DNA of 64,000 nucleotides from Candidatus Aenigmatarchaeota archaeon (GTDB taxonomy: Archaea > Aenigmatarchaeota > Aenigmatarchaeia > GW2011-AR5), in the NCBI GenBank assembly GCA_016193585.1, contig JACPRW010000003.1:62001-126000 (forward strand), written 5' to 3'. Under the pieces are notes generated by a model. The model was not told the origin of the DNA. It did not search any database and saw only the letters and a list, made by a program, of their open reading frames with translations. Position 1 is the first letter of the stretch. Each line of letters begins with the position of its first letter. The translations under genes and the position numbers were made by a program. Below are positions 4,291-53,610 of the stretch, piece after piece.

Positions 4291-5234
4291 AAACGTATGT
4301 CCCCGTAAATGCCTTTTTTATAACGGGCTTTTATGCCTTCTGATATTCCTTCGAGTTTTGCTTTAATCAACAAAAGGTACATGAAATCTTTCTCGAACAA
4401 AACATAGATGAATAACGCAAGTATTTCCAGAAGCTCCCCTAGGGCGTATTCCGGCAACCCGGAAAAACGTATCAGGTTGTTCTTGAAAACAAAGTACTGG
4501 TGCTGTTTGTAATTGTTATACAGGAAGTCGAACCTGCCCTCCCTGCCTTGGTTCTCTGAATGGTGGACAACTTTTGCGTAAGGATTGTAGAGTATTCTGT
4601 AGCCTTTTTTTCTAAGCCTTACACATACGTCTGTTTCTTCCCTGTGGGAGGTTTTGTCAAACCATGTGTCAAACCCTCTTATAGACAGGAGCGCCTTTTT
4701 CCGGAATGACATTACACTTCCTTTAACATGTTTCGCTTCCGTAATCTTTCCCATGTTCTCTTTGAAGCTGCCAGTAACTCTTCCGCTATTTCTTACATCC
4801 ATTTTCTTGATACGCAGGAAAGGGTTTACATCACGTAGGATAAAATTTTTTGCCTTCTGGAAAACGTTCAGCTTGGCTGGATTTCGTGGATTGTTTTCGT
4901 TGCCGCCTACTGAACCTATCGACTCGCTTGTGTAGCATTCCAGTATTTTACCCACGCAGTCATTTTCTGCTTCTGTATCGTCGTCAAGGAACACTATAAT
5001 TTCGCCGTTACTTTTCATAATTCCCGTGTTTCTTGCGACACATCTTCCCTTTTTCTCCTCTTCGATATAATTTGCCCCGTGTTTCTTGCATATTTCTTTT
5101 GATTTTTCGCTGGGCGTGGATACTACTAATAGTTCAAAATCCTTGTATGTCTGTTTTTTCAGAGACTTTAAGCATCTGTCAAGCGATTCGTGCCTGTCTT
5201 TTGTGCATACAACAACCGATAGTTTGCGCAGCAT
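4287..5234 (-). CDS. GT2 family glycosyltransferase
   Basis: SVVVCTKDRHESLDRCLKSLKKQTY, FLDDDTEAENDC, EETDVCVRL. Confidence 0.9.
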   Translation of the reverse strand: MLRKLSVVVCTKDRHESLDRCLKSLKKQTYKDFELLVVSTPSEKSKEICKKHGANYIEEEKKGRCVARNTGIMKSNGEIIVFLDDDTEAENDCVGKILECYTSESIGSVGGNENNPRNPAKLNVFQKAKNFILRDVNPFLRIKKMDVRNSGRVTGSFKENMGKITEAKHVKGSVMSFRKKALLSIRGFDTWFDKTSHREETDVCVRLRKKGYRILYNPYAKVVHHSENQGREGRFDFLYNNYKQHQYFVFKNNLIRFSGLPEYALGELLEILALFIYVLFEKDFMYLLLIKAKLEGISEGIKARYKKGIYGDIRL

Positions 5235-5284
5235 ACTTAATACAATTTAGAATATTTTAAAAGCCTTCCAACAAATGACTTTCG

Positions 5285-6394
5285 ATGAGGATTCTGTTCG
5301 TTTCTGAATACTATTATCCGGCCGAAATGGGCGGCGCGGAAATAAGCATGAAAATACTAGCTGAAGAACTGGCAAAAAAGCATGAAGTTCACGTACTCAC
5401 GCCAAATTATTATGAATATAAAAACACAGAAACTGTGGAAAACGGGGTAAATATCCGTAGATTTAAAAGCAAAAGACTTTATTTTTTCAGGCAGAGAGGC
5501 ACGTCAAAGGTTGTTTACAGAGCCAACAAAAACCTGTTCGGCTCGCTGATAAAGCTCTATGCGAAATATTCGTCTCATGAATTGGAGAAAAATATAGAAA
5601 AAGCTGAAAATTTTGACGTAATCCATGCGAACAACTTTGAGTCTGCTATCGCCCTTAACAATGCCAAAGCAAAAGGAAGGAAAATAGTGCACCTCAGGGA
5701 TTTCAGGTTGGCGGAAAGTGCGGGAAAATTAAAAAATATAGATTTTTTCATCGCAATAAGCAAGTTCGTCAAAAAGGGGTATGTCAAATGTGGCTTGGAA
5801 GAAGGCAAAATAGGTGTTGTATACAATCCTGTTTCATCTGAAGATGTATCTGATATATCAAAATCCGCGGCAAGGAAAAGGCTTGGGCTAGATTTTAAAA
5901 GAATAGCACTTTTTGTAGGCTCTTTGGTTGAAGAAAAGGGAATAAGAGAAATTCCGAAAATAGCCGGATGCCTGCCTGAATACGATTTTATAATAATAGG
6001 CGAAGGGCCGGAAAAGGATTTCCTTCTGTCAAACAAAACACAAAATATGCACATAACAGGTTTCGTCAGCAAAAGCGAACTAAAGCATTACTACAGAGCC
6101 GCCGATGTACTAGTGGTTCCTTCGAAAGCCGAGCCTTTCGGAAGGGTTGTTATAGAAGGCCAGGCAAACGGCTGCGTTGTGGTAGGGCTGGATAAAGGTG
6201 CCATGAAGGAACTTATAAAAAATGGTAAAAATGGTTTTATCGTAAAGGATGGTGGCTTTGTAAAGCTTATAAAATCTTTGAACAGGCTTAGAAAAGCCCG
6301 AATTGGGGTGAATGCCTCAAGAGCAAAAAATACCTATCAAGCGGATAAAATATCCAAGTGTGTGGAAAAGATATATGAAAAGGTGCTGGTATGA
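5285..6394 (+). CDS. GT4 family glycosyltransferase
   Basis: MRILFVSEYYYPAEMGGAEIS; PSKAEPFGRVVIEGQANGCVVVG. Confidence 0.9.
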   Translation: MRILFVSEYYYPAEMGGAEISMKILAEELAKKHEVHVLTPNYYEYKNTETVENGVNIRRFKSKRLYFFRQRGTSKVVYRANKNLFGSLIKLYAKYSSHELEKNIEKAENFDVIHANNFESAIALNNAKAKGRKIVHLRDFRLAESAGKLKNIDFFIAISKFVKKGYVKCGLEEGKIGVVYNPVSSEDVSDISKSAARKRLGLDFKRIALFVGSLVEEKGIREIPKIAGCLPEYDFIIIGEGPEKDFLLSNKTQNMHITGFVSKSELKHYYRAADVLVVPSKAEPFGRVVIEGQANGCVVVGLDKGAMKELIKNGKNGFIVKDGGFVKLIKSLNRLRKARIGVNASRAKNTYQADKISKCVEKIYEKVLV

Positions 6395-7494
6395 TATCAC
6401 ATTTTGTTTACAAATACCTGCCACTTTCAGAGAGATTTATTTACAACCAAATAAGATATATAAAAAAGTTCAAGACCTCGGTAATTACAACAGATGTCAT
6501 TAATGACAAATTTCCTTTCGACGAAATTCATTCTTTAAGCAGTATGAAATTTCCTTTTAATAGCCTTGAGACCCTAAGATTCAAAATTACGGGCAATTCA
6601 AATTTTTTTGAAAATGCGCTTTCGGACACTTCCCTGATTCATGCACATTTCGGCAACTCATCACTAAAAATTTTGAAAATAGCGAAGAAAAGAAATATAC
6701 CGTTGGTAACTTCCTTTTACGGGAACGACGCTACAAAATATCCAAAAACCAATCCCGGGGTATACAAAGAACTATTCTCTTATAGCAAGGCGTTTCTTGT
6801 TCCTTCTTTCAGCCTGAAGGGCGACATTGAAAAACTGGATTGCCCTTCTGACAGGATAAAAGTTTTGAGGCTGGGAGTTGACGTTAATTTCTTTAGATTC
6901 AAGAAAAGGGAGCATAAAGAAAAAGCCCGCTTTTTATCAGTAGCACGATTCGTAGAGAAGAAAGGCTTGACGTATCTTATAACGGCTTTTTCGAATCTTT
7001 TGGAAGACGGCTACGACGCCGAATTAGTTTTATGCGGAAATGGTCCTCTTAAGGGCCGGCTCGCAAGTCATGCCAGAAACCTCGGGATAAAGGGGAAAGT
7101 GACATTTATCGACAATTTTTCCTCGGAAAATCCAAGAAAAGTCGTTCTGGAAGAAATGTATAAATCTGATGTTATGATTACGCCTAGCGTTACTTCTTCG
7201 GACGGTGACAAGGAATCTTTGAATTTAGTAAACCTGGAAGCTGCGTCAACAGGAATGCCTGTTATATCAACTTTTCATAACGGTATACCGGAAGTCGTGG
7301 AAAACGGCAAAACTGGTATTCTTGTCTCTGAAAAAAGCCATTCAGAACTTTACGAAAAAATGAAACTTTTCATGGAGAATCCAAAATATTTTATGAAACT
7401 TGGGAAAAATGGAGCGCAAAAGGTCAGAAAAGAGTTTACTATAGGAAAGCAAAACAAGGAGCTTGAAAAGGTATATAATGTTTTTGCTAATTAG
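6391..7494 (+). CDS. GT4 family glycosyltransferase (colanic acid WcaL-like)
   Basis: HFVYKYLPLSERFIYNQI, HAHFG, RLGVDVNFF, SVARFVEKKGLTYLITAF. Confidence 0.88.
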   Translation: MISHFVYKYLPLSERFIYNQIRYIKKFKTSVITTDVINDKFPFDEIHSLSSMKFPFNSLETLRFKITGNSNFFENALSDTSLIHAHFGNSSLKILKIAKKRNIPLVTSFYGNDATKYPKTNPGVYKELFSYSKAFLVPSFSLKGDIEKLDCPSDRIKVLRLGVDVNFFRFKKREHKEKARFLSVARFVEKKGLTYLITAFSNLLEDGYDAELVLCGNGPLKGRLASHARNLGIKGKVTFIDNFSSENPRKVVLEEMYKSDVMITPSVTSSDGDKESLNLVNLEAASTGMPVISTFHNGIPEVVENGKTGILVSEKSHSELYEKMKLFMENPKYFMKLGKNGAQKVRKEFTIGKQNKELEKVYNVFAN

Positions 7495-7510
7495 AAATGG
7501 TAATGATTCT

Positions 7511-8206
7511 ATGGAAGTAGTAATACTCTGCGGGGGAAAAGGAATAAGACTTGTCCCGAAAACGATGCATGTCCCAAAACCTATGCTTAACATAGGTGAT
7601 ATGCCGATATTAGAGCATATAATCAGGTTCTTTTCTAAATATGGCCATAATGATTTTATCCTGTGTCTGGGTTATAAAGGAGCCGTTATAAAAGGCTATT
7701 TCAAAGACAAGAAAGAATGGAATATAAAATTTTTAGACACCGGAGAAAACAGCTCTAAGGGTGATAGACTAAGAATTGCAAAGGGTGTCATAAAAGGGGG
7801 GAAATTCTTTGTTGCGTATGGCGATGACCTTTCTGATGTTAACCTTAATAGCGTTATAGATTTCCATAATTCACATAATGGGATTGCCACTCTCACTGCC
7901 ACACGGTTGAAATCCCCGTTTGGTATAATAAATTTTGACGAAAGCCGAAAGGTATTGGATTTTGAAGAAAAACCTATTTTGGATCACTACATAAATGGCG
8001 GGTTCTTTGTTTTTGATAAGAAGATTTTTGACTTTCTTGAAGAAGGGGAAGATATAGAAAAAGATCTTTTCCCCAAATTATCTAAGAAGGATCTTGTATA
8101 CGCCTACAAACACGACGGCTTCTGGGCCTGTATGAATACACATCAGGATAACGTTACACTAAATGAATTATGGAATAAAAAAGAGGCGAAGTGGAAGGTG
8201 TGGTAA
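7511..8206 (+). CDS. Glucose-1-phosphate cytidylyltransferase-like nucleotidyltransferase (RfbF-like)
   Basis: MEVVILCGGKGIRLVPKTMHVPKPMLNIGDMPILEHIIRFFSKYGHNDFILCLGYKG. Confidence 0.8.
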   Translation: MEVVILCGGKGIRLVPKTMHVPKPMLNIGDMPILEHIIRFFSKYGHNDFILCLGYKGAVIKGYFKDKKEWNIKFLDTGENSSKGDRLRIAKGVIKGGKFFVAYGDDLSDVNLNSVIDFHNSHNGIATLTATRLKSPFGIINFDESRKVLDFEEKPILDHYINGGFFVFDKKIFDFLEEGEDIEKDLFPKLSKKDLVYAYKHDGFWACMNTHQDNVTLNELWNKKEAKWKVW

Positions 8207-9178
8207 ATGAAATGGGAAGATAAAAATGTCTTTATAACAGGCGCTAATGGATTTGTCGCGTCTTGGCTTTGTAAATCGGTACTAGAAAAAGGTGCAAATG
8301 TTTTTGCACTCATAAAAGAAGAAATAAATGGTTCCGTTTTTAATTCTCTGTCTAATAAAAATTTAAAAAGGGTTGATGGAAATGTTGAAGATTTCGATTT
8401 AATGAAAAAGTCTATAAAAGAAAACGAGATTGATTATTGCTTGCATTTGGCTGCGCAAACAATAGTAGGAAAAGCGAATAAAGGGCCCCTGGATACTATT
8501 AAAACTAACGTTATGGGAACCACTAACGTTTTGGAAGCGTGCAGGCTGAACGAAATTGAAGGGTTTGTTTTGGCATCTAGCGATAAGGCTTACGGCCCGC
8601 AGGAAACTCTTCCGTATACAGAAGACTCGCCATTAAAGGGGATTTTTCCTTACGATGCCTCGAAGAGTTCAGCTGATATCATAGCTCAAGCTTATTACCA
8701 CACATACGATATGCCTATAGCTATCACTAGATCTGCAAACATATATGGAGGAGGCGACATGAATTTTTCAAGGATAGTTCCGGATACCATCAGGTCTTTG
8801 ATAAAAGGACAGGCGCCTATAATAAGAAGTGATGGGACGCCAGTGAGGCAATACATATACGTGGATGACATAGTTAATGGTTACTTACTAGTCGCTGAAA
8901 ACATTGAAAAGGTAAAGGGGGAACCTTTTAATTTCGGTTCTTCTGATCCTATAACCGTATTGGATTTTGTCAATCTCGTAATATCTATCTACGGTTCTGA
9001 CGTAGAACCTGCCATAGAGGCAAAATCTGGGAAAGGAGAAATACATTCGCAGTATCTTTCCAGCGAAAAGGCCAGGAAATCTCTTAATTGGGCCCCAAAA
9101 GTTAATCTTGATACTGGTATAAAGAAAACCATCGAGTGGTATAAAAATCACTTTGGTAGATTGTATGATGAAGAATAA
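8207..9178 (+). CDS. NAD-dependent epimerase/dehydratase (CDP-glucose 4,6-dehydratase RfbG-like)
   Basis: NVFITGANGFVASWL, SSDKAYGP, YDASKSSADIIAQAYYHTY. Confidence 0.8.
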   Translation: MKWEDKNVFITGANGFVASWLCKSVLEKGANVFALIKEEINGSVFNSLSNKNLKRVDGNVEDFDLMKKSIKENEIDYCLHLAAQTIVGKANKGPLDTIKTNVMGTTNVLEACRLNEIEGFVLASSDKAYGPQETLPYTEDSPLKGIFPYDASKSSADIIAQAYYHTYDMPIAITRSANIYGGGDMNFSRIVPDTIRSLIKGQAPIIRSDGTPVRQYIYVDDIVNGYLLVAENIEKVKGEPFNFGSSDPITVLDFVNLVISIYGSDVEPAIEAKSGKGEIHSQYLSSEKARKSLNWAPKVNLDTGIKKTIEWYKNHFGRLYDEE

Positions 9179-10121
9179 ACGAATCCTTGTTACAGGGGGG
9201 TTGGGGTTTTTAGGTTCTAATATCTGCACAGATTTGTCTAAAAATAATGAAATTTTTATAATCGATAAAAGACAAGATTCTGAAAGTCTTAAAGATTTTG
9301 AAAATGTCAAATTAGTTGTCTTAGACCTTACAGATCAGAAAACGACAAGCGGTGTAATAAAAGAAATAAATCCTGAAATAGTGTATCATTTGGCTGGTTT
9401 TACACTTACTGATAGGAATGAAAAGTTCATTGATGAATCTTTGAACTCTAATATCGTAGGTACTATAAATGTGCTGAAAGGAATTGCCGAAATAGAAGTG
9501 GAAAGTTTTGTATATCCTTCGACTTCTGAAGTTTATGGCACCTTGAACAAACCGCCCTTTGAAGAAAATATGCTCCCGAGACCTTCTTCGCCATATTCTG
9601 CAAGCAAGCTTGCGTGTGAATATTATTGCACGTTGTATAATGATACCTATGGTCTCCCCGCCACTATTTTAAGATTGTTCAATCTTTATGGTCCTTACCA
9701 GGTATCGAATAGGTTCATATCATCCTGCATATTATCATTGATTAAGGGAGAAGAATTCACCATGACTAGAGGGGAGCAAACCAGAGAATTCAACTACGTA
9801 AAAGATATTGTGAATGCATTCGTTCTTGCGAGTTTGAAAAAACCTAACGGGGAGATCATAAACATCGGGTGTGGTGAAGACCACAGAATAATAGATGTTG
9901 CAGAAAAAATTCTTGCTATTACTGGAAACAAAGGGCGTATAGCTCCTACACTTTCTTATAGAAATAATGACATTAAAAGGGTCTTTACCAGTAACTTAAA
10001 AGCGAGAAATCTGCTGGGCTGGAAACCGGAATATAAATTAGAAGAAGGGCTAAGGGAGACTATAAGCTGGTATGAAGAAAAATTGAAGGAAAATAAAAAT
10101 TCAGTTTATTTTTCCAAATGA
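9165..10121 (+). CDS. NAD-dependent sugar epimerase/dehydratase
   Basis: RILVTGGLGFLGSNI, PYSASKLACEYYC. Confidence 0.85.
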   Translation: MMKNKRILVTGGLGFLGSNICTDLSKNNEIFIIDKRQDSESLKDFENVKLVVLDLTDQKTTSGVIKEINPEIVYHLAGFTLTDRNEKFIDESLNSNIVGTINVLKGIAEIEVESFVYPSTSEVYGTLNKPPFEENMLPRPSSPYSASKLACEYYCTLYNDTYGLPATILRLFNLYGPYQVSNRFISSCILSLIKGEEFTMTRGEQTREFNYVKDIVNAFVLASLKKPNGEIINIGCGEDHRIIDVAEKILAITGNKGRIAPTLSYRNNDIKRVFTSNLKARNLLGWKPEYKLEEGLRETISWYEEKLKENKNSVYFSK

Positions 10122-10314
10122 TGAATTTTAATAATCCGTGAGCACTATAGTGAAACCAGAAAATAATGTCGGTTCCTTAGAACCATGCAATTTGTGCGAT
10201 TTCGTGGGGTTTCTATAAACCTCACAAGTTGTCCTGATTACAAGGCAATTGCAAAGCAATCATCGCAATAAAGGGAACATGAAGCGGCAGAAACGATTTA
10301 TGAGCAACTGAACG

Positions 10315-11406
10315 TTACGGAACACTAAGAACGCGCGCTAACTGTTTTGACAAAACCCCGAAATCGTAATATTTTACGGCACGTTTTCTGGCTGCTTTGC
10401 CTAGTTTTTTTCTCATTTTTTCGTCTTCAATCAGTTTTACTATGCACTTTTCAAAGATCGCTATATCAAAATCAGATAAAAGCCCGGCTCTTCCGTTGTC
10501 CATGTATTTTACGCTTTCTCCTGCACGCATGGTGACTATAGCTTTTTCCATTGACATAAACTCCTTGATTTTGCAGGAGCTTCTTGTATAAGACGTGAAG
10601 TCATTACCAAAAGGCACAAGACATATGTCCATTGCGGCAATATAATAAGGCATTTCAGAATACTTTACATAATTTGTAAAAATAAATTTATTCTCTATTC
10701 CATTCTTCTTGGTAAATTTTATGAAGTCGTTAAGACCCGGGCCGAAACCAACTATAATGAATCTTACATTGTTATATTTTTTCAGAATCTGGATAGATAC
10801 CTCTGCTATTTCGCGATAGGCGAAAATTCCTTTATATTTTCCTATGTATCCCGTGACTCCTATAAGAATTTCATTTCTTAGATTGTATTTTTCCCTTATA
10901 ACGTCTCTGTCATATTTTTCCGGGTCAAAGAAATCGGTGTCAACACCATATGGTATGGAGAAAACACTTTTGCCAGAACCTCTTATTTCAGATGTGATTT
11001 TATAGAGTTTATCACTCACTACAACTACTTTGTCCGCAGTTTTTACCGCTAAATATTCGAAATATTTTATGTTCCACGGTTTCGGTTTCTTTTTTGTAAA
11101 ATCTTCAAAAGCATCTCCCCATTCTACAACAAGCTCAACGCCCTTTATTTTTTTAAGCAGTATTGCCGGTAACGAAGAAGCTATAAGGGGAGCAGAAGCG
11201 TAAACGGTGTCGCCGTTTTTAACAGTCATGATGGAACTTATTATGTTTGCCGCTATTGCAGCGAGTTTAAAGAATACATTAGACCATGCTCTTGGCATTA
11301 TTTCTTTTTTTTCAAATCTAAGTCTCTTTGTGAGTTCCTTTATCTGTATAGTTGTAGAGAATTTTTCAGGCAGCCCGTAAATAACAGCCAGCATATTAAT
11401 CATCAT
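10315..11406 (-). CDS. GT4 family glycosyltransferase
   Basis: Conserved IPYGVDTDFFDPEKYDRD...IGVTGYIGKYKGIFAY...CKIKEFMSMEKAIVTM. Confidence 0.85.
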   Translation of the reverse strand: MMINMLAVIYGLPEKFSTTIQIKELTKRLRFEKKEIMPRAWSNVFFKLAAIAANIISSIMTVKNGDTVYASAPLIASSLPAILLKKIKGVELVVEWGDAFEDFTKKKPKPWNIKYFEYLAVKTADKVVVVSDKLYKITSEIRGSGKSVFSIPYGVDTDFFDPEKYDRDVIREKYNLRNEILIGVTGYIGKYKGIFAYREIAEVSIQILKKYNNVRFIIVGFGPGLNDFIKFTKKNGIENKFIFTNYVKYSEMPYYIAAMDICLVPFGNDFTSYTRSSCKIKEFMSMEKAIVTMRAGESVKYMDNGRAGLLSDFDIAIFEKCIVKLIEDEKMRKKLGKAARKRAVKYYDFGVLSKQLARVLSVP

Positions 11407-11421
11407 TTCTTTTTATTCAGT

Positions 11422-12480
11422 TCATGTAATGTAATTGGACGTTTTCCACTTCTTTTTGATAAAGAACAGTAAAACCCCATGAAAATACCCTATAAAATGC
11501 ATCGATTGCCTTAAAATGTCGATTAAAAAATATTTTACGCGAAAATCTCCGGCTATGCTCAAAGAACTAAAAGCTGATATGAAAACAATTGCGGACAACA
11601 AGAATGAAATAATGGCAAAAGATATATTCATGTCAATCGGTAAATAACCTATCGAAACCAAAAGAAGCATGGAGTACAAAAAATCTCTGGAAACCGCCGA
11701 GTATTTTTTTGCTTCTTTGAAACCATGTTTTATCATTATTGAAACGCCGCATTTTAGCCAGAAAATGGCAGAACCTATGCCACGCGAGTAGGACTGCAAT
11801 GCAAAACCTTTGAGCGTTTCTCTGCTTCCATGCCATACCACTTTTGGAACAAATGCTGTTTTATATCCAAGATTACATACTTGTAATTTAATTTGTGCCT
11901 CTTCCCCGGCACCTACATAGGTTTCATCAAACCCCCCGACCCTCTCAATAACATCTTTCCTGTAGGACATATTGCTTGTCCCGCCAGTCGGGGATTCGAA
12001 TCCTCCTATGAAAGTTTTTTTGTCTTCTAACCGACCTCTATAAATTCGATTCATCAAAAGACTGTAGTATTTTATGAAATCATTGTTATCCTGATAAGGC
12101 ATATTTTTTGCGTACCCTCCCACGCCTGCAATATTTTTATCATTATAAAATTTTATGAAAGATTTTATCCAGTCTTTTTCGACAATACAGTCATCATCCG
12201 TAAAAAACACTATTTTTCCTTTGGCATTTTTTATTCCTATATTTCTTCCGTGAGCCTGCCCCAAAGAAAAATCTTTTTTCCTGAACCATCTGAAATTTTT
12301 TCTTCTTCCCTCAAAAATCTTTAGCATTTCTTCTGTCCCGTCTGTAGAACTATGAACAACTATGATTTCGTATTTCTTGGATGGGTAATCCAAATTAAAA
12401 ATAGAGTTTAGAGCTCGCCGCAATAAACCCTTTCTGTTATGGGTAGAAATTACTATGCTTACAAAGGGCGTCCCTTTCAT
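11422..12480 (-). CDS. GT2 family glycosyltransferase with C-terminal TM region
   Basis: FVSIVISTHNRKGLLRRALNSIF, FFTDDDCIVEKDW. Confidence 0.9.
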   Translation of the reverse strand: MKGTPFVSIVISTHNRKGLLRRALNSIFNLDYPSKKYEIIVVHSSTDGTEEMLKIFEGRRKNFRWFRKKDFSLGQAHGRNIGIKNAKGKIVFFTDDDCIVEKDWIKSFIKFYNDKNIAGVGGYAKNMPYQDNNDFIKYYSLLMNRIYRGRLEDKKTFIGGFESPTGGTSNMSYRKDVIERVGGFDETYVGAGEEAQIKLQVCNLGYKTAFVPKVVWHGSRETLKGFALQSYSRGIGSAIFWLKCGVSIMIKHGFKEAKKYSAVSRDFLYSMLLLVSIGYLPIDMNISFAIISFLLSAIVFISAFSSLSIAGDFRVKYFLIDILRQSMHFIGYFHGVLLFFIKKKWKTSNYIT

Positions 12481-12516
12481 TATAATTCACCAATCCTATC
12501 AATAACCACATCTTCT

Positions 12517-12614
12517 TATAGCAGATTGTAATAATAATGGAACTTTATACCACAATCTGCTATAGGGAAAGAACATTGTAAAATGTTCCAAAATCAATGT
12601 TCTTTACTATTATA
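12517..12614 (+). repeat. Two-hairpin palindromic element, family A copy 1
   Basis: tatagcagattgta...cacaatctgctata + agaacattg...caatgttct; near-identical copies at 14385, 44913 and 53515(-). Confidence 0.9.
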
Positions 12615-12747
12615 TACCACCGACTAATTCGAGGAAAGCTTTGCTTTCTTCGAATTTCTCAAAGGATTCCAAGTGAATCCTTTGGAGAAAAGTCGGTGGT
12701 TCCTCAAGGGGCTTGCTCTTTGGGGACTAGAAGATGTGATATTGGTG
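12615..12747. repeat. Three-way-junction inverted repeat with two arms plus distal hairpin (element B)
   Basis: Outer stem accaccgact/agtcggtggt encloses hairpins attcgaggaaagc-ttt-gctttcttcgaat and tctcaaaggattc-caagt-gaatcctttggaga, followed by tcctcaagggg-cttg-ctctttgggga. Confidence 0.75.
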
Positions 12748-12899
12748 TCAAGAGAAAGTTTTTTGTATATGATGAAATGAAAGAGTACGCCAAATCAAGG
12801 GTGTAAAGAGTTTATGAGGTTTAGCTGCCTAATATTTGTGCACCAGAGCACCTTCCAATTACTTTTGGATATAGGGGTGAAATTATTATCAAAAAAACA

Positions 12900-13439
12900 G
12901 TGAAATTGCTTGCTGATGGCTTGGGTTTAATTGTTAAAAGAAAATATCCCCAGCCGTTTGTGAGGGAAATCCTAGACAGGCGCGAGTTAGTAGGGGCTGA
13001 AATAGGTGTGTGGCGAGGTGACAATGCAAAAGCGATGCTGAAAATACTGGATATCAGAAAACTTTACTTGATAGATCCCTATGAGACTTACGATGAATAC
13101 AAAGAAGAAGAAAAAAGTGGGGCGTTCTCTCAAAAAGCGTTGAAAGAAGTGGAAAAAATAATATCTCGTGATAAAAGAGTGGTCTTAATAAGGGAGCGGT
13201 CTGAAAATGCCGTAAATAAAATAATAGAGCCTTTGGATTTTGTTTTCATAGACGGGAACCATGATTATGAATACGTAAAAAAAGACCTTGAAATGTATTA
13301 TCCCCTGGTTAAGAAAGGCGGGTTCATAGCAGGCGACGACATAAGCATTGATGATGTCTCTAAAGCTGTTATAGAATTTTCATTAAAAACTAAACTCAGA
13401 TTGCATGTAAGACATAATAACTTCTTTTTTGTGAAATAA
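12900..13439 (+). CDS. Class I SAM-dependent methyltransferase (Methyltransf_24-like)
   Basis: AEIGVWRGDNAKAML..LYLIDPYETY..DFVFIDGNHDYEYVKKDLEMYYPLVKKGGFIAGDD. Confidence 0.8.
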   Translation: MKLLADGLGLIVKRKYPQPFVREILDRRELVGAEIGVWRGDNAKAMLKILDIRKLYLIDPYETYDEYKEEEKSGAFSQKALKEVEKIISRDKRVVLIRERSENAVNKIIEPLDFVFIDGNHDYEYVKKDLEMYYPLVKKGGFIAGDDISIDDVSKAVIEFSLKTKLRLHVRHNNFFFVK

Positions 13440-14279
13440 TTATCTCTCGATAAGCTTCATCAGAAACAGTTTTATAGAAGATAATACCAAATTCTTTCTG
13501 TTGCTTAAGGACCACTGCCGCAAGAATTTCCTTTCATCTAGATTACTCTCCTTCTGTATATGTTCCCAGTAACTTTTCCTTAGGACATGTTTATACTTCT
13601 TGTAAAAAATTTCCTTCTTTTCCCTGTTTTTTAAGAACTCTTCTAGGGCTTTCTTGTTGTTGAAATATACCCAGTTTGAACTTTGCCCACCTATATGGAC
13701 ACACTTCATTCTTTTGCATGCAATCAGATACCCTTTGCTCCTGGCATTTGTCTCCCAATCAGCGTCGTAGAACCCCAAAGGAAAATTCTTGGCATCAAAA
13801 TGGCATTTTTCCATAACCTCTTTTCTTGTACCCATTACAGTAGTAGACCAGTCGCATATTTTTATATTCCCGTCTACATAACCTAGTTCACCCACGCTCC
13901 TGTCTATGTACTTATCTTCGACTATACCCAATACACCTATCTGCTTATGTTCGCTTAAAATGTCAGTTGCTTTTTCGATCCACCGTTTTTCGAATACTAT
14001 TACGTCATCGTCTACTATGAAGTAGAAATCGTAATTTTTGTGTTTCTTCACTACATTTGTTATTGCAATTGGTATGTTGCACATTATTTCCGATTTGACA
14101 ATATCCACAGCTGGAAACTGCCTGTTCATGCTCTCGAAAAATCTCCTGTTATCTTTAGGACCATTGTAAGCAAGAGCTATCTTGAAGTTCCCGGAATTTT
14201 TCTTGAAAATATATTTTATGTTATCGAATATTTTTTCGTGCTTCCCGACTGTTGTTATGATTATAAGGCTTTTCTGCAT
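13440..14279 (-). CDS. GT2-like glycosyltransferase
   Basis: DFYFIVDDDVIVFEKRW, GFYDADWETNARSKGYLIAC. Confidence 0.8.
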   Translation of the reverse strand: MQKSLIIITTVGKHEKIFDNIKYIFKKNSGNFKIALAYNGPKDNRRFFESMNRQFPAVDIVKSEIMCNIPIAITNVVKKHKNYDFYFIVDDDVIVFEKRWIEKATDILSEHKQIGVLGIVEDKYIDRSVGELGYVDGNIKICDWSTTVMGTRKEVMEKCHFDAKNFPLGFYDADWETNARSKGYLIACKRMKCVHIGGQSSNWVYFNNKKALEEFLKNREKKEIFYKKYKHVLRKSYWEHIQKESNLDERKFLRQWSLSNRKNLVLSSIKLFLMKLIER

Positions 14280-45278: not shown

Positions 45279-47966
45279 TCAGTTGCCGATAATTTTTGTT
45301 CCCATCGAACCATGGTAGCTTATAAGAAGGTCCCCGCCGCAGTCGCATGCTCCCGCGAGCGGCATCCGCCGGTAGGATTTGCTGCAGGTTTTGCATACAA
45401 GTCCCTCCCACCCGTTCAGGCTTTGCGGCTGCCTCACGGTGACGTCGATGGTATGCTTCATCTTCCGCTTGGTGCCGGTGAGTATGTCCATGATGTTCGT
45501 CTGCCTGCCGCTGCCGAGTACCTCGCTTCTGCTCACGCCGACGGCGTTGAGAATCCTTTCGATTGGGGGGAGGAGCTGGCTGTAAATATAATACTCCGAA
45601 TCAATGCTGATGTTGTGTTTTCTGACGTACTCGGGGTCTTCTGCGCGCTTCGACAGGAGTTGGTTGCCTTTTATTATGACGAATCCCAGGCGGTCCCCGA
45701 TCTTCACCGGCTCTGAAGGGTTCCTGGTGTTGAGCTTCCGCGCGAGCTCTATGTGCGGCGAGATCCCCTCGTAGCTTTCAAGGCTCCTCGTGATTCCCTT
45801 GACAATCGTCAGCTTTTCAAGCGGGATTTCCCCTTCCTTGAGTTTCTCGAGGACTTCCCTCAGGCTTGTTATAGCTTTCTGTATGTCGCCCTCCTTGAGT
45901 ATTACGTCAATGACGTGTTTTGTCGTTTCCGAGACGAGTGGGCACCAGTCGCGCCGTATGGTTTCTATTCCCTTCATTTCAATGTCGTCCTTCCATACGC
46001 CGCCCTCGAAGACGAATTTCCATCCAGCGTAGCGTTTTTTCGTGAGCACCAGAAACGTCCTGTAAATCTTCTCGAACTCGAGTTCTAGGTATCCCGGTAG
46101 TGCATCGCTTATCTTCCGGGAAATTGTATTCCCGAGTTTGTACGCCTCTTCGGGATTCGTGATGGTGGTCTTCATGAGGAGGCTGTCGGTGTCGCCGTAT
46201 ATGACCTCCACGGGGAAGCTGTCCTCTATCAGCTTTTTCGTCGTTTCGATATTCTGCCTCCCGTACGCTGTTATCGAGTTCGCTACGTCCATCACGTACA
46301 ATCGCGCCCTGACGTAACCGGTGTAACCGTATATCGAGTTCGAGATGTCCTTGAGGGCGAGCTGCCGTGCGTTGAGCATTTTCCGCTTTTCTCCTGTCTC
46401 GCTCTTCATCAGTTTCTTTGCGGCACTGCGGGCATCGAGCAGCTTTGTCAGGACCGACGGCATGATGCCCTCCCGGACTTCCTGCGTGACGAATGACGCG
46501 CCCGACGGGGACGTATGGGACGCGGCTTGTCCGTTCAGTATCAGCGTGTCGGTTGATATGTTGAACGACCTCATGATGCTCGGATACAGGCTGCGGAAAT
46601 CAAGGACAAGTGTGCACCCTTCTGCATGGAGCCCTTTTTTCGGTTCCAGAACCGTCGCTCCTTTGATTCCTATTTTTTCCCGTTCCTTGGTTCTCTGGTT
46701 GACGAGATGCTGGCTTGGTCTGGCCTGCATGACGAAGTTCCGCTTCTTGAATTCGTACATGAGCATCGTTTCCACGCGTGTCGCCTGGCCGCTGAAGCAG
46801 TCCTGGAGCAGCAGCCCCGATATTTTTGACAGCTCAAGGAACTTGTCAAGTAATTCCTTCTTGATGACGAGTTTCAGCGAAAGGTCTGCGTCTTTTCGCG
46901 CATATTCCACCAGATGTGATGTTTCTTCTCTCGCCCCCGCCCATAGTTTTGGTATGTCGCTGTAGACCACGTCAAGTTTCTCCTCGTTGAGCAGTTCCTT
47001 CGCGACTGTGTTGAGGTTGTAACGGTGGAATTTTATCCATGGATCCCGGCGCAGGATTTGGTAAGGATCGACAACCACCCTCCCGGGGAGGCCGCATTCC
47101 TGGAAGAGCCCGATCTTTTTTGCAAATACCGGCTTGTCTTTTACTCTTCCGAATGTCCTTGGCAGGCGGTGGGCGTCCAGCCTGTCGAGTATGTACGGCA
47201 GGTCGAAGGAATTTATGTTGTATCCTGTGACGATATCCGGGTCGTAGGTATCGATGATGGTGAGGAACTCTGCCAGCATTTCCTTTTCGTTCTGGAAGCC
47301 TTTGGTTTCTTTTCCCTGTAGCTGCTTCGCCACCAGGACGAGCGATGTCTGCCCCCGGTACGCCGGCTCGAAAGAGAGCGCTATCATAATGATGGTGTTG
47401 TTTTTCGGGTCCAGCGGCCTTCTCGTGTCTGTGGGGAGGCACTCTATGTCGAGTGCGAGGTATTTCAGCCCTGTGTTTGCTTCGTTCGCTACCGGCGCTA
47501 TGGTTTCGGCATGGTACGCCGGAACCGATACCGTTTTCGTCGGTGCGATGGTGCATTCGGCTTCCACCCAGCCCATGCCGTGGATGTTAAAGTCCACCAT
47601 GAAGCGGTATTTGAACAATATATCTGCCTCGAAGACTTCGTCGCACGATTTGTTTTCTAGGAACGTATCGCGGATGCGCGGGACATCTTGTGGGTTGGTG
47701 AGCGTCAGCTTGAGAAGCGGCGTCGGGGCCTGTTGGTGCCCTATCGGCAGGAATTTCTCTACCTTTTCGGCGCTGACAATCTCCCTGTGCGCCGGCAGTG
47801 CGTCTGCTGTCTTGTCGTTTGGTTTTATGAAGAAGTAGGGGAGGAATTTGTCGTAGAAAACGCAGACGGCGTTTCCGGACGCTGTTTTCCCGAACAGTCT
47901 GATGGTTGGCTTCTTCCCGCCGTTCAGAAAATAATCGACGTCGAGCAGCTGGAAAATCAGTTTCAT
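45279..47966 (-). CDS. polB: B-family DNA polymerase with intact exo and pol motifs and a C-terminal DP2-like zinc ribbon
   Basis: YLALDIECLP, YNINSFD, YARKDADLSL, DFRSLYPSIMRSFN, KDISNSIYGYTGY, YGDTDSLL; C-terminus CKTCSKSYRRMPLAGACDCGG. Confidence 0.95.
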   Translation of the reverse strand: MKLIFQLLDVDYFLNGGKKPTIRLFGKTASGNAVCVFYDKFLPYFFIKPNDKTADALPAHREIVSAEKVEKFLPIGHQQAPTPLLKLTLTNPQDVPRIRDTFLENKSCDEVFEADILFKYRFMVDFNIHGMGWVEAECTIAPTKTVSVPAYHAETIAPVANEANTGLKYLALDIECLPTDTRRPLDPKNNTIIMIALSFEPAYRGQTSLVLVAKQLQGKETKGFQNEKEMLAEFLTIIDTYDPDIVTGYNINSFDLPYILDRLDAHRLPRTFGRVKDKPVFAKKIGLFQECGLPGRVVVDPYQILRRDPWIKFHRYNLNTVAKELLNEEKLDVVYSDIPKLWAGAREETSHLVEYARKDADLSLKLVIKKELLDKFLELSKISGLLLQDCFSGQATRVETMLMYEFKKRNFVMQARPSQHLVNQRTKEREKIGIKGATVLEPKKGLHAEGCTLVLDFRSLYPSIMRSFNISTDTLILNGQAASHTSPSGASFVTQEVREGIMPSVLTKLLDARSAAKKLMKSETGEKRKMLNARQLALKDISNSIYGYTGYVRARLYVMDVANSITAYGRQNIETTKKLIEDSFPVEVIYGDTDSLLMKTTITNPEEAYKLGNTISRKISDALPGYLELEFEKIYRTFLVLTKKRYAGWKFVFEGGVWKDDIEMKGIETIRRDWCPLVSETTKHVIDVILKEGDIQKAITSLREVLEKLKEGEIPLEKLTIVKGITRSLESYEGISPHIELARKLNTRNPSEPVKIGDRLGFVIIKGNQLLSKRAEDPEYVRKHNISIDSEYYIYSQLLPPIERILNAVGVSRSEVLGSGRQTNIMDILTGTKRKMKHTIDVTVRQPQSLNGWEGLVCKTCSKSYRRMPLAGACDCGGDLLISYHGSMGTKIIGN

Positions 47967-49099
47967 ACCTTCACTTCTTTTCCGGTATTTTTAACCGTTT
48001 CCTGGTGCGTTACTGTTGCCTGGAAGATTTCTCTTGACCCGAAGTCGACTATCACCGGTCTGAATGTGCTGAGAAGCGACCCTGAGTTTACGATTGTTAT
48101 TGATTTGTAATTGTAGACGTGCGGCTGGTGTGATTGCCCGTGATGGACGATGTCGGGGACGTCGTCGAGCGTTAGGTAATCCTCGGGGAGTATTGTCGTG
48201 GACCTTCCCATGTATCGTTTCTTCAGTATGTCGGGTGAGAAGTTATGCACCATCAGTACTTTCAGTCCGCCCGCCTCCACGATAGCGGGGTTGGACACAG
48301 AGGTGATGTTTTTGCCGGTGAACGCCCGGGGGAGCTGTGGGTACTCCTCGGCGCGCTCTCCTCCGGGGGAAATGATGACCATCTTGCTTCTGGCGTATGT
48401 GTTGATGAGCGACTCGAGTTTCTGGTAGTCGTCTACCCCGCCTGCAATGAAGAGGTATTGGAAGTCCTGCTGTTCCACCCACCTGAAGAACCGTTCAGTA
48501 TCCTCATTCGGCGCTTCGGTGATGTGCAGGTCCGATACAAAACACCCCTTCCCCCTGCCTGAGGTTGGCTGGCGAAGCGGTATATCCGGATACAGAATCT
48601 GTTTGCCGGCCAGTGTTTTCCCTTCCCACTGCACCCGTGCAGCCACGACGTCGTCAAGCTCTATTTTTTGTTTTTCGTGAAACACAACCTGTATGGTGGT
48701 TGTCATATCCTCGAACTCTATGAGTTGTTTGCCGTCTCGCTCCGCGGCATCCTTGACCATACCTATGATGAAAATCTCCCCGCCTGTCTGTGGTATTTTG
48801 TTCAGGGAAACGAACTCCTTCTGGAGCCTGGTGAGGATGATTCGGGACATCTTTTCATATTTTGATTTGTAGAAGTGCATGAAGTCCTCGGTTGTCACCT
48901 CGGTAGGTTTATGTTCGAGTGATTTGAGTACGCGCGTGCCTGTTGTCTGGACGAAGTCCGATTCATTGAGGACGAGTTTGGTGGTGTGTGGAACCTCGGG
49001 TGAGGTGTTGGCGAGTATTTCAAGCGCTTTTGGTGTTAGTAGTTTGCCTTTTTCGAAGAATTTGAGCACGATTGCATCGTGGTTCATCTCCTCACCCAA
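47963..49099 (-). CDS. DNA polymerase D small subunit (DP1)-like protein with degenerate phosphoesterase site
   Basis: OB-fold region then CFVSDLHI, LFIAGGVDDY, ISPGGERAEEYPQLPRAF, LMVHNFS, DIVHHGQSHQPHVYNYKSITIVNSGSLLSTF. Confidence 0.88.
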   Translation of the reverse strand: MGEEMNHDAIVLKFFEKGKLLTPKALEILANTSPEVPHTTKLVLNESDFVQTTGTRVLKSLEHKPTEVTTEDFMHFYKSKYEKMSRIILTRLQKEFVSLNKIPQTGGEIFIIGMVKDAAERDGKQLIEFEDMTTTIQVVFHEKQKIELDDVVAARVQWEGKTLAGKQILYPDIPLRQPTSGRGKGCFVSDLHITEAPNEDTERFFRWVEQQDFQYLFIAGGVDDYQKLESLINTYARSKMVIISPGGERAEEYPQLPRAFTGKNITSVSNPAIVEAGGLKVLMVHNFSPDILKKRYMGRSTTILPEDYLTLDDVPDIVHHGQSHQPHVYNYKSITIVNSGSLLSTFRPVIVDFGSREIFQATVTHQETVKNTGKEVKV

Positions 49100-50318
49100 A
49101 TTTCGTCACCAATATCTTTCTTGTTTTCTCGCGTACAGGGCCGGATAGGGAAAGGGATATTTCCCTCGTCCTCCCATACCGCCCTTTTGAGATGACACGG
49201 GTCGCTATGACGCCGAGCATGTCGAGTTCGGCTACCAAATCACTTACCCTTCTCTGTGTTAATGGTTTTATATTGGTGGCCGTGCAGATGGTGTTGTAGT
49301 GGTGGAATATATCACCCGAGAGTATCCGCCTGTCAGTCCATTGTGCGTCCTGCTGCTTCTCTGTTTGTGTTATGATGACATGGAGCACGAGTTGTGAATG
49401 TAGTGGTTGTGATTTTATGAGTTCGACTATCCGCTCGAGGTTTATCTTTTCCTCTGCCAAATCCACATGCGTCTCCGTTACGTTGACGTCCCCCATCCGC
49501 TCTGCTATTTCTCCGGCAACGCGGAGCAGGTCCAATGCCCGCCGGGCGTCCCCATGCTCCTGTGCCGCAAGGGCTGCGCACTTGCCAACGGCCTCGTCGA
49601 GTACCACCCCCTCCCCAAAACCGGAGAGCGTGCGTTCAGCCAGGATATCATGGAGTTGTGTGGCGTTGTAGGGTTTGAAAAGTATTTCTTCCTCTCCAAG
49701 TGAAGATTTTACCCGCTGGTCAAGACTGTCCCGGAACGACGCGTTGTTGGTGATGCCGATAATGGTGATTCGGGTATTTTTCAACTCAATATTGATCCGG
49801 GATAGGTTGTAGAGGAACTCGTCGCCTATCTTGTTGATGAGTGTGTCTATTTCATCCAGGATTATGATGAGTGGTTTGTTGGTACTGTCCACCATCTCGA
49901 AAAATCTCCTGTATAAAACGTCTGTTGGCAGCCCTGTGTCAGGAACCCACCCCCCAAGAAGCCGTATGAGTTGTGCGAACAGCCGGTATTCGGTGTCGGC
50001 GACGCGTTTCATTTTACAGTTTATATAGAGTGTTTGTATTTCTTTGTCATTGGCCGCCGCGGCATCTTGTAGTTGTTGGAGGACTGTTTTACAACAGACC
50101 GTCTTGCCGGTGCCACAGGTGCCGTAGACGAAGATGTTGTTGATGGTATACCCCTTGAGCGCTGGAGCCAGGGTAACACTGAGTTGTTGTATCTCTTGTT
50201 CCCGGTGTTTTATTTTTGATGGTATGAAATTTGCGGTGAGTGTGTCTTTGTCTTGGAAGAGTGTTGGTTGTTTGAGATATTGTGAAAAAATTAGATTTTC
50301 CTGTCTACTACCCATCAC
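49092..50318 (-). CDS. cdc6: Orc1/Cdc6 replication initiator
   Basis: FVYGTCGTGKTVCCKTV, LIIILDEIDTL, IGITNNASFRDSLDQRVKSSLGEEEI, HGDARRALDLLRVAGEIAE, winged-helix C-terminus. Confidence 0.95.
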   Translation of the reverse strand: MMGSRQENLIFSQYLKQPTLFQDKDTLTANFIPSKIKHREQEIQQLSVTLAPALKGYTINNIFVYGTCGTGKTVCCKTVLQQLQDAAAANDKEIQTLYINCKMKRVADTEYRLFAQLIRLLGGWVPDTGLPTDVLYRRFFEMVDSTNKPLIIILDEIDTLINKIGDEFLYNLSRINIELKNTRITIIGITNNASFRDSLDQRVKSSLGEEEILFKPYNATQLHDILAERTLSGFGEGVVLDEAVGKCAALAAQEHGDARRALDLLRVAGEIAERMGDVNVTETHVDLAEEKINLERIVELIKSQPLHSQLVLHVIITQTEKQQDAQWTDRRILSGDIFHHYNTICTATNIKPLTQRRVSDLVAELDMLGVIATRVISKGRYGRTREISLSLSGPVREKTRKILVTKFG

Positions 50319-50563: not shown

Positions 50564-50968
50564 TCATTGTGGTACGAATTTGAAACCATAGAACAAAATT
50601 CCCGATTCGTCGTTGTCGTGGAGCCTCCTGAAAACAACACGGACAGGTACCCCAACACGAACACTACCCACATCCACATCAATCTGTGCAGTCACTAGGG
50701 GACCTTCCTTCAATTCCACAACCCCAACCACATACGGCGTCTCCCCCTCATACCCAGTTGGGGGGGCATGAATTGTGGTATAAGAAACAACCTTCCCCAC
50801 ACCCGAAAGCGCATGGCTGACCAAACCATCCTTCCCACACGACATACAGAATGTGCGGGGGGGAAAGTGGACGACATCACACCCATCACACCGGCTCCCG
50901 ATGAAATTATACCGGGCCTTGCGCAACCGCCATCCCTGAGGAACGAAACCGCGCACCATATATGTCAC
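50564..50968 (-). CDS. DUF35-type Zn-ribbon/OB-fold protein (acyl-CoA binding partner of the thiolase/HMGCS complex)
   Basis: GSRCDGCDVVHFPPRTFCMSCGKDG; adjacent to thiolase and HMG-CoA synthase. Confidence 0.9.
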   Translation of the reverse strand: MTYMVRGFVPQGWRLRKARYNFIGSRCDGCDVVHFPPRTFCMSCGKDGLVSHALSGVGKVVSYTTIHAPPTGYEGETPYVVGVVELKEGPLVTAQIDVDVGSVRVGVPVRVVFRRLHDNDESGILFYGFKFVPQ

Positions 50969-50974
50969 CTTAAC

Positions 50975-52135
50975 CTACAATTGGTCCAAACCAAGTAAGG
51001 TGGCGACCGCTGTCGCCCCACTACCCCCTACATTGAGCGCTAAACCGTAGTGGGGATTTTTAAGTTGGTTGTGGGATGTACCCCGGAGTTGTTTTGTTAT
51101 ATCAACCACCTGGCGTATTCCTGTTGCGCCCACCGGGTGCCCTATCGCTTTGAGCCCACCCATAGTGTTCGTTGGGATGGTGCCGGTTCTTCTGACTTCA
51201 CCAGCCTCGACAAACATACCACCACCCCCCTTCTGGCAAAATCCAAGGTCTTCTAAGGCAAAAATCTCATTAATCGAGAAACAATCATGGACCTCAAGGA
51301 GGTCGATGGCATCATGCTTCAGGTGGGTTTTCTCAAACACAGCACTACCAACGGCTTTTGTGGCAGCCATCTCTACCAACGAGGCGCGGTCGTGGAGTGC
51401 AACGGTATCAGACGCCTGTTCGCTGGCGAGAAGCCAGACTGGTGTTGGCAACTGCCGGGCTATTCTTTCCGACACGATGACGGCGCATGCGGCGCCGTCG
51501 GTTATTGGAGAGCAGTCCAGTACATGGAGCGGGTCGGCGACGAGTGGGGAGGAGAGTACGTCTTGTATGGTTGTAGTGAAGGGGAACTGGGCATAGGGGT
51601 TCCCAACAGCGTGTTCGTGGTTTATGACCGAGACCATGGCAAGCTGCTCCCGCGTCGTCCCGAAGCGGTGCATGTGCGCCCGCGCCATGAGCGCATAAAT
51701 GCCGGCGAAGGTGAGCCCTATTGACGATTCCCACTCATGGTCTCCTGCAGCCATCAGGGCGGCGTTGACGTCCTGCGTCCTCAAATCAGTCATCTTCTCA
51801 ACACCAAGCGCGGCAACAACGTCGTATGCGCCCGAGGCAACGGCGAGATACGCCTGCCGCAGTGCTGTTGCGCCCGAGGCGCATGCAGCCTCGCAGCGCG
51901 TTGAAGGTATCGGCGCAAGCCCGACCGCATCGGCTACAAGCGCAGCCACATGCTCCTGTTCGGCAAGGAGCCCCGCGCTCATGTTCCCGACGTATAGTGC
52001 CTGGACGCGGGCGCTTTCCAGGTTCGCGTCGGCGACTGCATGCTTGACCGCTTCACCGGCAAGCTGCCTGATTGACTGGTCCCAGTGCTCGCCGAACTTC
52101 GTCTGCCCGACTCCGGCAATTGCAACGTTCTTCAT
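50975..52135 (-). CDS. Acetyl-CoA C-acetyltransferase (archaeal thiolase)
   Basis: STRCEAACASGATALRQAYLAVASGAYDVV; TNTMGGLKAIGHPVGATGIRQV; LALNVGGSGATAVATLL. Confidence 0.93.
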   Translation of the reverse strand: MKNVAIAGVGQTKFGEHWDQSIRQLAGEAVKHAVADANLESARVQALYVGNMSAGLLAEQEHVAALVADAVGLAPIPSTRCEAACASGATALRQAYLAVASGAYDVVAALGVEKMTDLRTQDVNAALMAAGDHEWESSIGLTFAGIYALMARAHMHRFGTTREQLAMVSVINHEHAVGNPYAQFPFTTTIQDVLSSPLVADPLHVLDCSPITDGAACAVIVSERIARQLPTPVWLLASEQASDTVALHDRASLVEMAATKAVGSAVFEKTHLKHDAIDLLEVHDCFSINEIFALEDLGFCQKGGGGMFVEAGEVRRTGTIPTNTMGGLKAIGHPVGATGIRQVVDITKQLRGTSHNQLKNPHYGLALNVGGSGATAVATLLGLDQL

Positions 52136-52144
52136 ACAATCAAC

Positions 52145-52426
52145 TTATACGAGATTGCCATGAGCATAACCACGTACTGACACGTTCCCGAACACTTCCA
52201 TCGCTTCTGCAGCACCGTAACGGAGAAAGCTCGGTGGGTGAGTGGTGGTAAGAGGCACATCGCCCGAGAAGTATAGAATCGTATCATGCTCGCCAATAAA
52301 GTGTGCAACACAACTGAATTTTCCAGACGGCTTGTAACAGAGTACCACCCGTCCGCCACAACAGCGTCCGATACGCGCATGCGCGTCATCGAGCAGGTCG
52401 CCTACAAGGCCGGTTATTTGGTGCAT
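52145..52426 (-). CDS. Small hypothetical protein between thiolase and HMG-CoA synthase
   Basis: 93-aa ORF fitting tightly between operon genes; no recognised domain. Confidence 0.4.
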   Translation of the reverse strand: MHQITGLVGDLLDDAHARIGRCCGGRVVLCYKPSGKFSCVAHFIGEHDTILYFSGDVPLTTTHPPSFLRYGAAEAMEVFGNVSVRGYAHGNLV

Positions 52427-52432
52427 GGTGCA

Positions 52433-53475
52433 TCACTCCCTCAAAAGCTTCCTCATGCGGGCGTATGCAGCGTAATCGACGTACGTCCTGCCGTTGTTTA
52501 TGTAGTGTGCCGTCGGCTGCGCAAGCGGTCGCCGTTCCTTGATGGCGTCAGTGACGACCAGTGAGAGCGAATCGCTGCCGGCACCCGAACCGAATGAGGT
52601 GAGGAGTATCCGCTCGCCGGGTTTGGCGATGTCGAGGATTGCGCACAGCCCGAGCAGGCTCGAGCCCGAGTAGGTATTCCCGATACGGCTTACCACGAGG
52701 CCCGGCAGCAGCTTCTGCTCGTCGAACCCGAGCGTTTTCGCCGCCTGCCGGGGAAACTTGCCGTTGGGCATGTGGAAGACAACATGGTCAAAATCATCCT
52801 GCTGCAACGAGAGTTTTTTCATGAGGCCTTGTGTCGCCGAGACGACGTGGCGGAAATATGCAGGCCTGCCGGTGAAACGTGCGCCGTGGCTCGGATACGC
52901 CTGCCCTTCCCTGCGCCAGAAGTCGGGCGTATCAGTGGTAAACGAGTAGGTGCCTTCGATGGCGGCGAGCGGGTCCCTGCCAATGATGAACGCGCCGCCG
53001 CCGGAAGAAGCAGTATACTCGAGTGCGTCTCCTGGCCGCGCCTGCGACGTGTCAGCGCCGATAGCCATGCCGTAGTCGGTCATGCCGGCTTTCACGAGCG
53101 CGTAGCAGACCTGCATGGCAGCTGTTCCTGCCTTGCACGCGAATTCAAAATCAGCAAGCATCACTTCTGGCGTGATGTCGAGTGCCTCAGCCACGACGGT
53201 TCCCGAGGGCTTGACAACATACGGGTGGCTCTCGCTGCCGACGAACAGCGCGCCGATGCGTTGGGGGTCTATCTGCGCGCGGAGCAGCGCATTTCTGGCA
53301 GCTTCGACGCTTATGGTGATGGTATCCTCGTCGCTGCCGGCAACGCTTTTCTCCTCTACCATGAGGCCGCGCTTGATGGTTTCCGGGTCCTGCCCCCAGA
53401 CACGGGCGATTTCTTCGACAGTGATACGGTAACGAGGGACATAGCATCCGTAACCTACAATACCCACATCATCCA
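52433..53475 (-). CDS. Hydroxymethylglutaryl-CoA synthase
   Basis: [77 protein letters not shown]. Confidence 0.93.
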
Positions 53476-53514
53476 TACATCCACCGGTTGAGATGAATAA
53501 CGCCAGCAAGTATT

Positions 53515-53610
53515 TAATAGTAAAGAACATTGATTTTGGAACATTTTACAATGTTCTTTCCCTATAGCAGATTGTAGTAAAAAGTTCCATTATTATTACA
53601 ATCCGCTATA
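53515..53610 (-). repeat. Two-hairpin palindromic element, family A copy 4 (reverse)
   Basis: taatagtaaagaacattgattttggaacattttacaatgttctttccctatagcagattgtagtaaaaagttccattattattacaatccgctata. Confidence 0.9.

Follow-up and report, generated by a model that had tools for sequence, protein, structure and literature searches.

A DP1-like protein of Aenigmatarchaeota, encoded beside a zinc-tailed family B DNA polymerase, is probably a non-catalytic polymerase subunit

Introduction

The replicative polymerases of eukaryotes pair a B-family catalytic subunit with a DP1-derived partner that is no longer catalytically active. In a 64,000-nucleotide stretch of Aenigmatarchaeota DNA (referred to here as the window) a gene for a DP1-like protein lies directly upstream of a B-family polymerase (PolB) gene, and the locus raises the question of whether this protein is still an enzyme of the PolD kind or has become a part of something else. 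The main text of Kazlauskas et al. 2020 (PMC7544198) describes DP2 as mostly absent from Aenigmarchaeota and DP1 as inactive, reports one or two DP2-like C-terminal metal motifs in the Aenigmarchaeota PolBs of group B6, and relates the arrangement to the origin of eukaryotic polymerases. We describe here the DP1-like protein, its neighbors, and its relatives across the phylum.

The DP1-like gene and its product

The gene belongs to a set of three co-directional genes, with cdc6 upstream and polB downstream:

49092..50318, minus strand: Cdc6/Orc1 initiator gene, first in the cdc6 - DP1-like - polB set
47963..49087, minus strand: DP1-like small subunit, apparently catalytically inactivated (374 aa), assigned by homology, alignment and fold model
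45279..47966, minus strand: B-family DNA polymerase, 895 aa, with polymerase and exonuclease motifs intact, assigned by motifs and Pfam

The DP1-like open reading frame spans 47963-49099 on the minus strand and is the single gene in that region, the plus strand having stops throughout. It opens at TTG 49099, within the 3' end of cdc6, and its stop is overlapped by the start of polB by four bases (ATGA). The start is probably ATG 49087, because GGTGAGGAG lies upstream and the position agrees with the ortholog start consensus MxKxxIV; the product would then have 374 aa, and not the 378 aa first given, although the protein is indeed short relative to the full-length DP1s (450–500 aa) of the sister family f11. 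Residues are numbered here from TTG 49099.

The protein is a DP1 homologue by sequence and by fold. It matches the NCBIfam model for the DNA polymerase II small subunit (E 1.1e-40, though far under the family cut-off) and the DP1 structures 5ihe/6hmf in the PDB (E ~1e-9), and an AlphaFold2 model using 28 related sequences is confident (mean pLDDT 90.3), with an OB fold and a calcineurin-like phosphoesterase domain. Foldseek places Pyrococcus abyssi DP1 first (E 3.7e-24; DP1 entries 9f2a/6hmf at E 1e-24 to 1e-23) and, next in rank, the B-subunits of human and yeast Pol epsilon, delta, zeta and alpha, which accords with the resemblance to inactivated eukaryotic B-subunits proposed from the sequence. 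The Pfam model DNA_pol_E_B (PF04042) gives no match to the window protein despite detecting control archaea, so PF04042 alone would miss it. A contig search with the single protein also returned no matches, and a 30-sequence alignment recovered the relatives.

The neighboring PolB and its zinc tail

Pfam recognizes both the exonuclease and the polymerase domain of PolB, and the motifs DIE, NxxxFD, YxxxD, DxxSLYPS and YGDTDS are at their expected places. Human Pol delta is its top-scoring solved structure (1e-104), on a par with Pyrococcus PolB, and its best NCBIfam match is TIGR00592 pol2. An AlphaFold2 model of PolB made without an alignment was discarded (pLDDT 32). The protein continues beyond the polymerase fold:

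45282..45515, minus strand: C-terminal extension past the polymerase fold, PolB residues 818-895 (78 residues)
45339..45395, minus strand: single C4 zinc motif CKTCSKSYRRMPLAGACDC in the tail, PolB residues 858-876, matching DP2 Zn-III

The 78-residue tail terminates in a CKTCSKSYRRMPLAGACDCGG motif, and the four cysteines of the C4 motif recur among PolB tails of the class. A profile built from 18 such tails has DP2 residues 1120-1157 as its top match in the whole PDB (E 5e-10), and the window PolB alone matches the NCBIfam DP2 model at residues 857-887 (E 3e-4). The PolBs of family f11, whose genomes keep PolD, have no such tail. In P. abyssi the DP2 Zn-III, with KxRRxP, sits in the groove that the OB domain of DP1 forms with its phosphoesterase domain, and a 20-residue Zn-III peptide of P. 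horikoshii binds DP1 with nanomolar affinity (PMC6355029). We infer from these likenesses that PolB and the DP1-like protein bind each other physically.

Two further features of PolBs in the phylum may be recorded. The RR of the docking zinc motif is lost at L065, L067, L078, L080 and L083 and at L069, L077 and L084 (e.g. YSASPL, YVVAPL), which tells against a uniform docking role; these are distant families whose DP1-like protein is also without recognizable phosphoesterase motifs, and co-evolution of the interface between PolB tail and DP1-like protein is possible on this pattern. At five loci (L037, L038, L042, L043 and L075) the PolB reading frames reach ~1320-1400 aa through 400-500 extra residues inserted at about query positions 550-610, in the polymerase domain; these large insertions are probably inteins.

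DP1, DP2 and other polymerases across the phylum

We surveyed 160 species of Aenigmatarchaeota; the close relatives of the window genome also carry the name Candidatus Aenigmatarchaeota, and include archaeon GW2011_AR5. The catalytic domain of DP2 occurs in ten of the 160 species, all in family f11, and its N-terminal domain has the same distribution in a sample of 60. Genes for DP1 or a DP1-like protein are far more widespread (140/160), with scores at or near the cut-off for full-length DP1 in f11 only. At one f11 locus (L072, G048:C21) the full-length DP1 reading frame has 858 codons (4684-7257, minus strand), with an intein-like insertion directly after the GD of motif II, and the DP2 reading frame of that genome is also oversized (1466 aa).

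In the window assembly and its order neither the N-terminal nor the catalytic domain of DP2 was found, the window genome being 90.75% complete, such that absence of DP2 from this one assembly is not absolute. A search of the same genome for a second, intact DP1, suggested with the original prediction, found none, the only other match having E 0.056; bacterial PolIII alpha (DnaE/PolC) was not found in it, and exactly one PolB was detected. On this inventory, PolB and the DP1-like protein probably form the main or only replicase of the organism.

Gene order

Of the DP1-like genes at 52 loci, 49 have cdc6 as their immediate upstream neighbor and 38 have polB immediately downstream, with both neighbors present in 35; some of the missing neighbors are contig ends. 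Since linkage to cdc6 is the tighter of the two, gene order does not prove PolB to be the partner. The f11 DP1 loci that were examined have no cdc6 neighbor. In Thermococcales and several other Euryarchaeota cdc6 adjoins DP1, and P. abyssi has the three genes cdc6, DP1 and DP2 grouped (PMC2643942); the simplest reading of the Aenigmatarchaeota arrangement would be that PolB took the place of DP2 next to DP1.

The prevalence of cdc6 also bears on a different account, in which the chief task of the DP1-like protein is to assist Cdc6 at the origin, where it would be an OB-fold loader or recruiter instead of a stoichiometric subunit of the polymerase. Recruitment of PolD by Cdc6 through DP1 has been proposed from gene order (PMC2643942), which lends this account some appeal. 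We regard it as improbable, however, because PolB here carries the zinc motif by which DP2 docks onto DP1, a motif absent from the PolBs of f11, the family that keeps DP2 and with it PolD. An origin role is moreover compatible with a role as polymerase subunit, and a polymerase subunit is what we take the protein to be.

The surroundings of the set include several other features. Beside cdc6 a search for an origin-like repeat gave one 10-base direct repeat only, and there is no clear turn in GC skew. Directly upstream of cdc6 (50564-53530, minus strand) are genes resembling, as judged by eye, those for a zinc/OB-fold acyl-CoA-associated protein, thiolase and HMG-CoA synthase, suggesting an archaeal thiolase/HMG-CoA synthase cluster. 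Glycosyltransferase, epimerase and flippase genes at 2770-12480, together with a G+C of ~0.37 over 4000-14000 relative to ~0.52 elsewhere, suggest a horizontally acquired cell-surface polysaccharide island. In one relative (G018; loci L088 and L089) two different cdc6-DP1-like-polB sets occur on separate contigs of a single MAG; one closely matches the set of G014/GW2011_AR5, the contamination of G018 is 5%, and the two sets may reflect strain mixing.

The active site of the DP1-like protein

As reference for the catalytic residues we used the full-length f11 DP1s, which have all eight of them and align with P. abyssi DP1 (5ihe) at E 6e-63. The seven metal ligands of DP1 have been catalogued, with H451 as the proton donor (PMC4996933). 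Alignment of the window protein gives the following motifs:

48524..48535, minus strand: motif I, SDLH, metal-ligand Asp and His both present
48437..48445, minus strand: motif II, AGG (canonical AGD), metal-ligand Asp gone
48353..48370, minus strand: motif III, SPGGER (canonical PGNHD), ligand Asn replaced by Gly and proton-donor His by Glu (role of the His from the literature)
48239..48253, minus strand: motif IV, MVHNF, His present
48128..48148, minus strand: motif V, VHHGQSH (canonical GHxH), first His replaced by Gln, second His present

Four of the eight catalytic positions are thus kept, namely D190 and H192 (SDLH), H285 (motif IV) and H324 (the last His, in GQSH), and the places of the expected Asp, Asn, His and His are taken by G221, G247, E248 and Q322. 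The window copy lacks the intact set of seven metal ligands and proton-donor His, with three of the ligands and the counterpart of H451 missing. The original prediction, that the phosphoesterase active site had been lost, named the same residues (the Asp of GD, the Asn and His of GNHD, and the first His of GHxH), and the comparison with the 5ihe-like f11 DP1s bears it out. A P. abyssi H451A variant served as the exonuclease-deficient form of DP1 (PMC6355029), and the nuclease activity of the DP1-like protein appears, on these residues, to have been lost.

Decay of the site among relatives

The replacements extend to sister genomes, and the motif III pair is affected in every copy of the same order: none of the 31 has Asn and His together. 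The proton-donor His is missing in 29 of them, and the two copies that have His at the donor position both have the Asn replaced, one of these alignments being doubtful. In a tree built without the catalytic columns the DP1-like proteins form one clade relative to f11 DP1 (support 100/100), on which the remaining catalytic positions have been lost in differing lineages, with 3 to 9 changes each. These losses exceed chance, because no order copy (n=31) has both motif III residues and because losses recur independently on the tree. Single in-frame stops inside the matches of several relatives were set aside as apparent 3'-end overrun, the re-cut reading frames being of normal length.

Only the motif I Asp, among the eight catalytic columns, exceeds the 80th percentile of conservation; most of the eight are conserved no more than ordinary columns, and the two motif III positions rank with the least conserved of all. 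The proteins share ~45% identity across the order, and 13 columns are invariant in 30 sequences, including S98, E130, D131, P174, P271, K294, R295, P315, D316, Y331 and K332. At three loci (L002, L048 and L051) the proton donor is the sole loss and all seven metal ligands are present. Because several relatives retain all seven ligands and lack the proton donor only, residual metal binding within the DP1-like family is likely. In other orders the matches to the DP1 model usually break off at about profile position 220-230, ahead of the phosphoesterase motifs. The alignments as a whole describe a graded decay of the enzyme site, in which the fold, or its OB part, is retained.

The ligands that persist, four positions in the window copy and the full seven in some relatives, could suggest that nuclease or phosphatase activity persists, through compensating residues or a changed mechanism. 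This is very unlikely, as the window copy has lost three of seven ligands along with the proton donor, the H451A change alone makes P. abyssi DP1 exonuclease-deficient (PMC6355029), the lost positions vary between relatives with no conserved substitute, and in families beyond the order the resemblance to the DP1 model mostly ends short of the phosphoesterase motifs. That the gene is a functionless decaying relic or an assembly artefact is hardly credible, for although its catalytic residues are being progressively lost, such genes occur throughout most of the phylum (140 of 160 species), are held at ~45% identity with 13 invariant columns, and here overlap polB by four bases and encode a confident single fold.

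Discussion

We consider it highly probable that the DP1-like protein derives from DP1 and serves the adjacent PolB as a B-subunit without catalytic function, forming with it a two-subunit replicase that lacks DP2. In the scheme that we favor, catalytic DP2 would have been replaced, in an ancestor of most Aenigmatarchaeota, by a PolB bearing a DP2-like Zn-III at its C terminus; DP1 would have stayed, docking onto the zinc motif of PolB by its OB/phosphoesterase groove, and its catalytic residues would have decayed stepwise. The DP1 nuclease would have become dispensable because PolB brings its own exonuclease domain. PolB would then perform both polymerization and proofreading, and the DP1-like protein would supply structure, perhaps with DNA contact by its OB fold and perhaps with a tie to Cdc6 at origins, where linkage to cdc6 may help bring the polymerase pair.

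A more specific version of this history has, in our judgment, a little better than an even chance of being right. DP2 would have been exchanged for PolB in place, within an ancestral cdc6-DP1-DP2 cluster, giving a eukaryote-like two-subunit PolB that is the sole replicase of most of the phylum, with each stage of loss preserved among relatives. Read in this way from the alignments, the stages would be an intact PolD (in one family), loss of the proton donor only, loss of several ligands, and phosphoesterase motifs beyond recognition (in further families).

The window protein shares fold, domain order and sequence homology with the DP1 of P. abyssi PolD (5ihe, 6hmf), but the latter is an active exonuclease with DP2, whereas here catalytic residues are lost and DP2 is absent. 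It is also reminiscent of the B-subunits of eukaryotic Pol alpha, delta, epsilon and zeta, which have a DP1-derived OB fold and an inactivated phosphoesterase domain, as predicted here, and a PolB partner with a C-terminal metal module that docks them. The differences are that eukaryotic PolB tails have two metal motifs and the window PolB one C4 motif, that catalytic residues here are lost only in part, and that one polymerase, with a link to cdc6, stands in place of several.

Within the archaea, the window case fits the account in the main text of Kazlauskas et al. 2020 (PMC7544198), by which the principle is already published for the phylum. The lineage is Aenigmatarchaeota, the DP1 is apparently inactive and DP2 is missing, as in the B6-aenigma system described there, and the PolB has one DP2-like metal motif at its C terminus, as has the B6-aenigma1 PolB, to whose group B6 it may belong. 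The same text reports a PolB of group B10 with DP1 in Heimdallarchaeota B3/LC3, similarly with a C-terminal metal motif and a DP1 homologue, although that PolB is of a different group, the lineage is unrelated, and some of its DP1s may still be active. That main text mentions no operon or neighborhood, and neither it nor our literature searches yielded the cdc6–DP1-like–polB order, the graded residue-by-residue decay, or the phylum-wide pattern in which DP2 and zinc-tailed PolB exclude each other; presence and absence are here followed across 160 species. The operon, the stepwise decay and the phylum-wide mutual exclusion are thus apparently new.

Aenigmatarchaeota appear to share the architecture of eukaryotic polymerases in one simple polymerase, and the sister family f11 retains the original PolD. 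The transition from PolD to PolB thereby becomes testable with small proteins from known genomes, and bears on the origin of the eukaryotic architecture.
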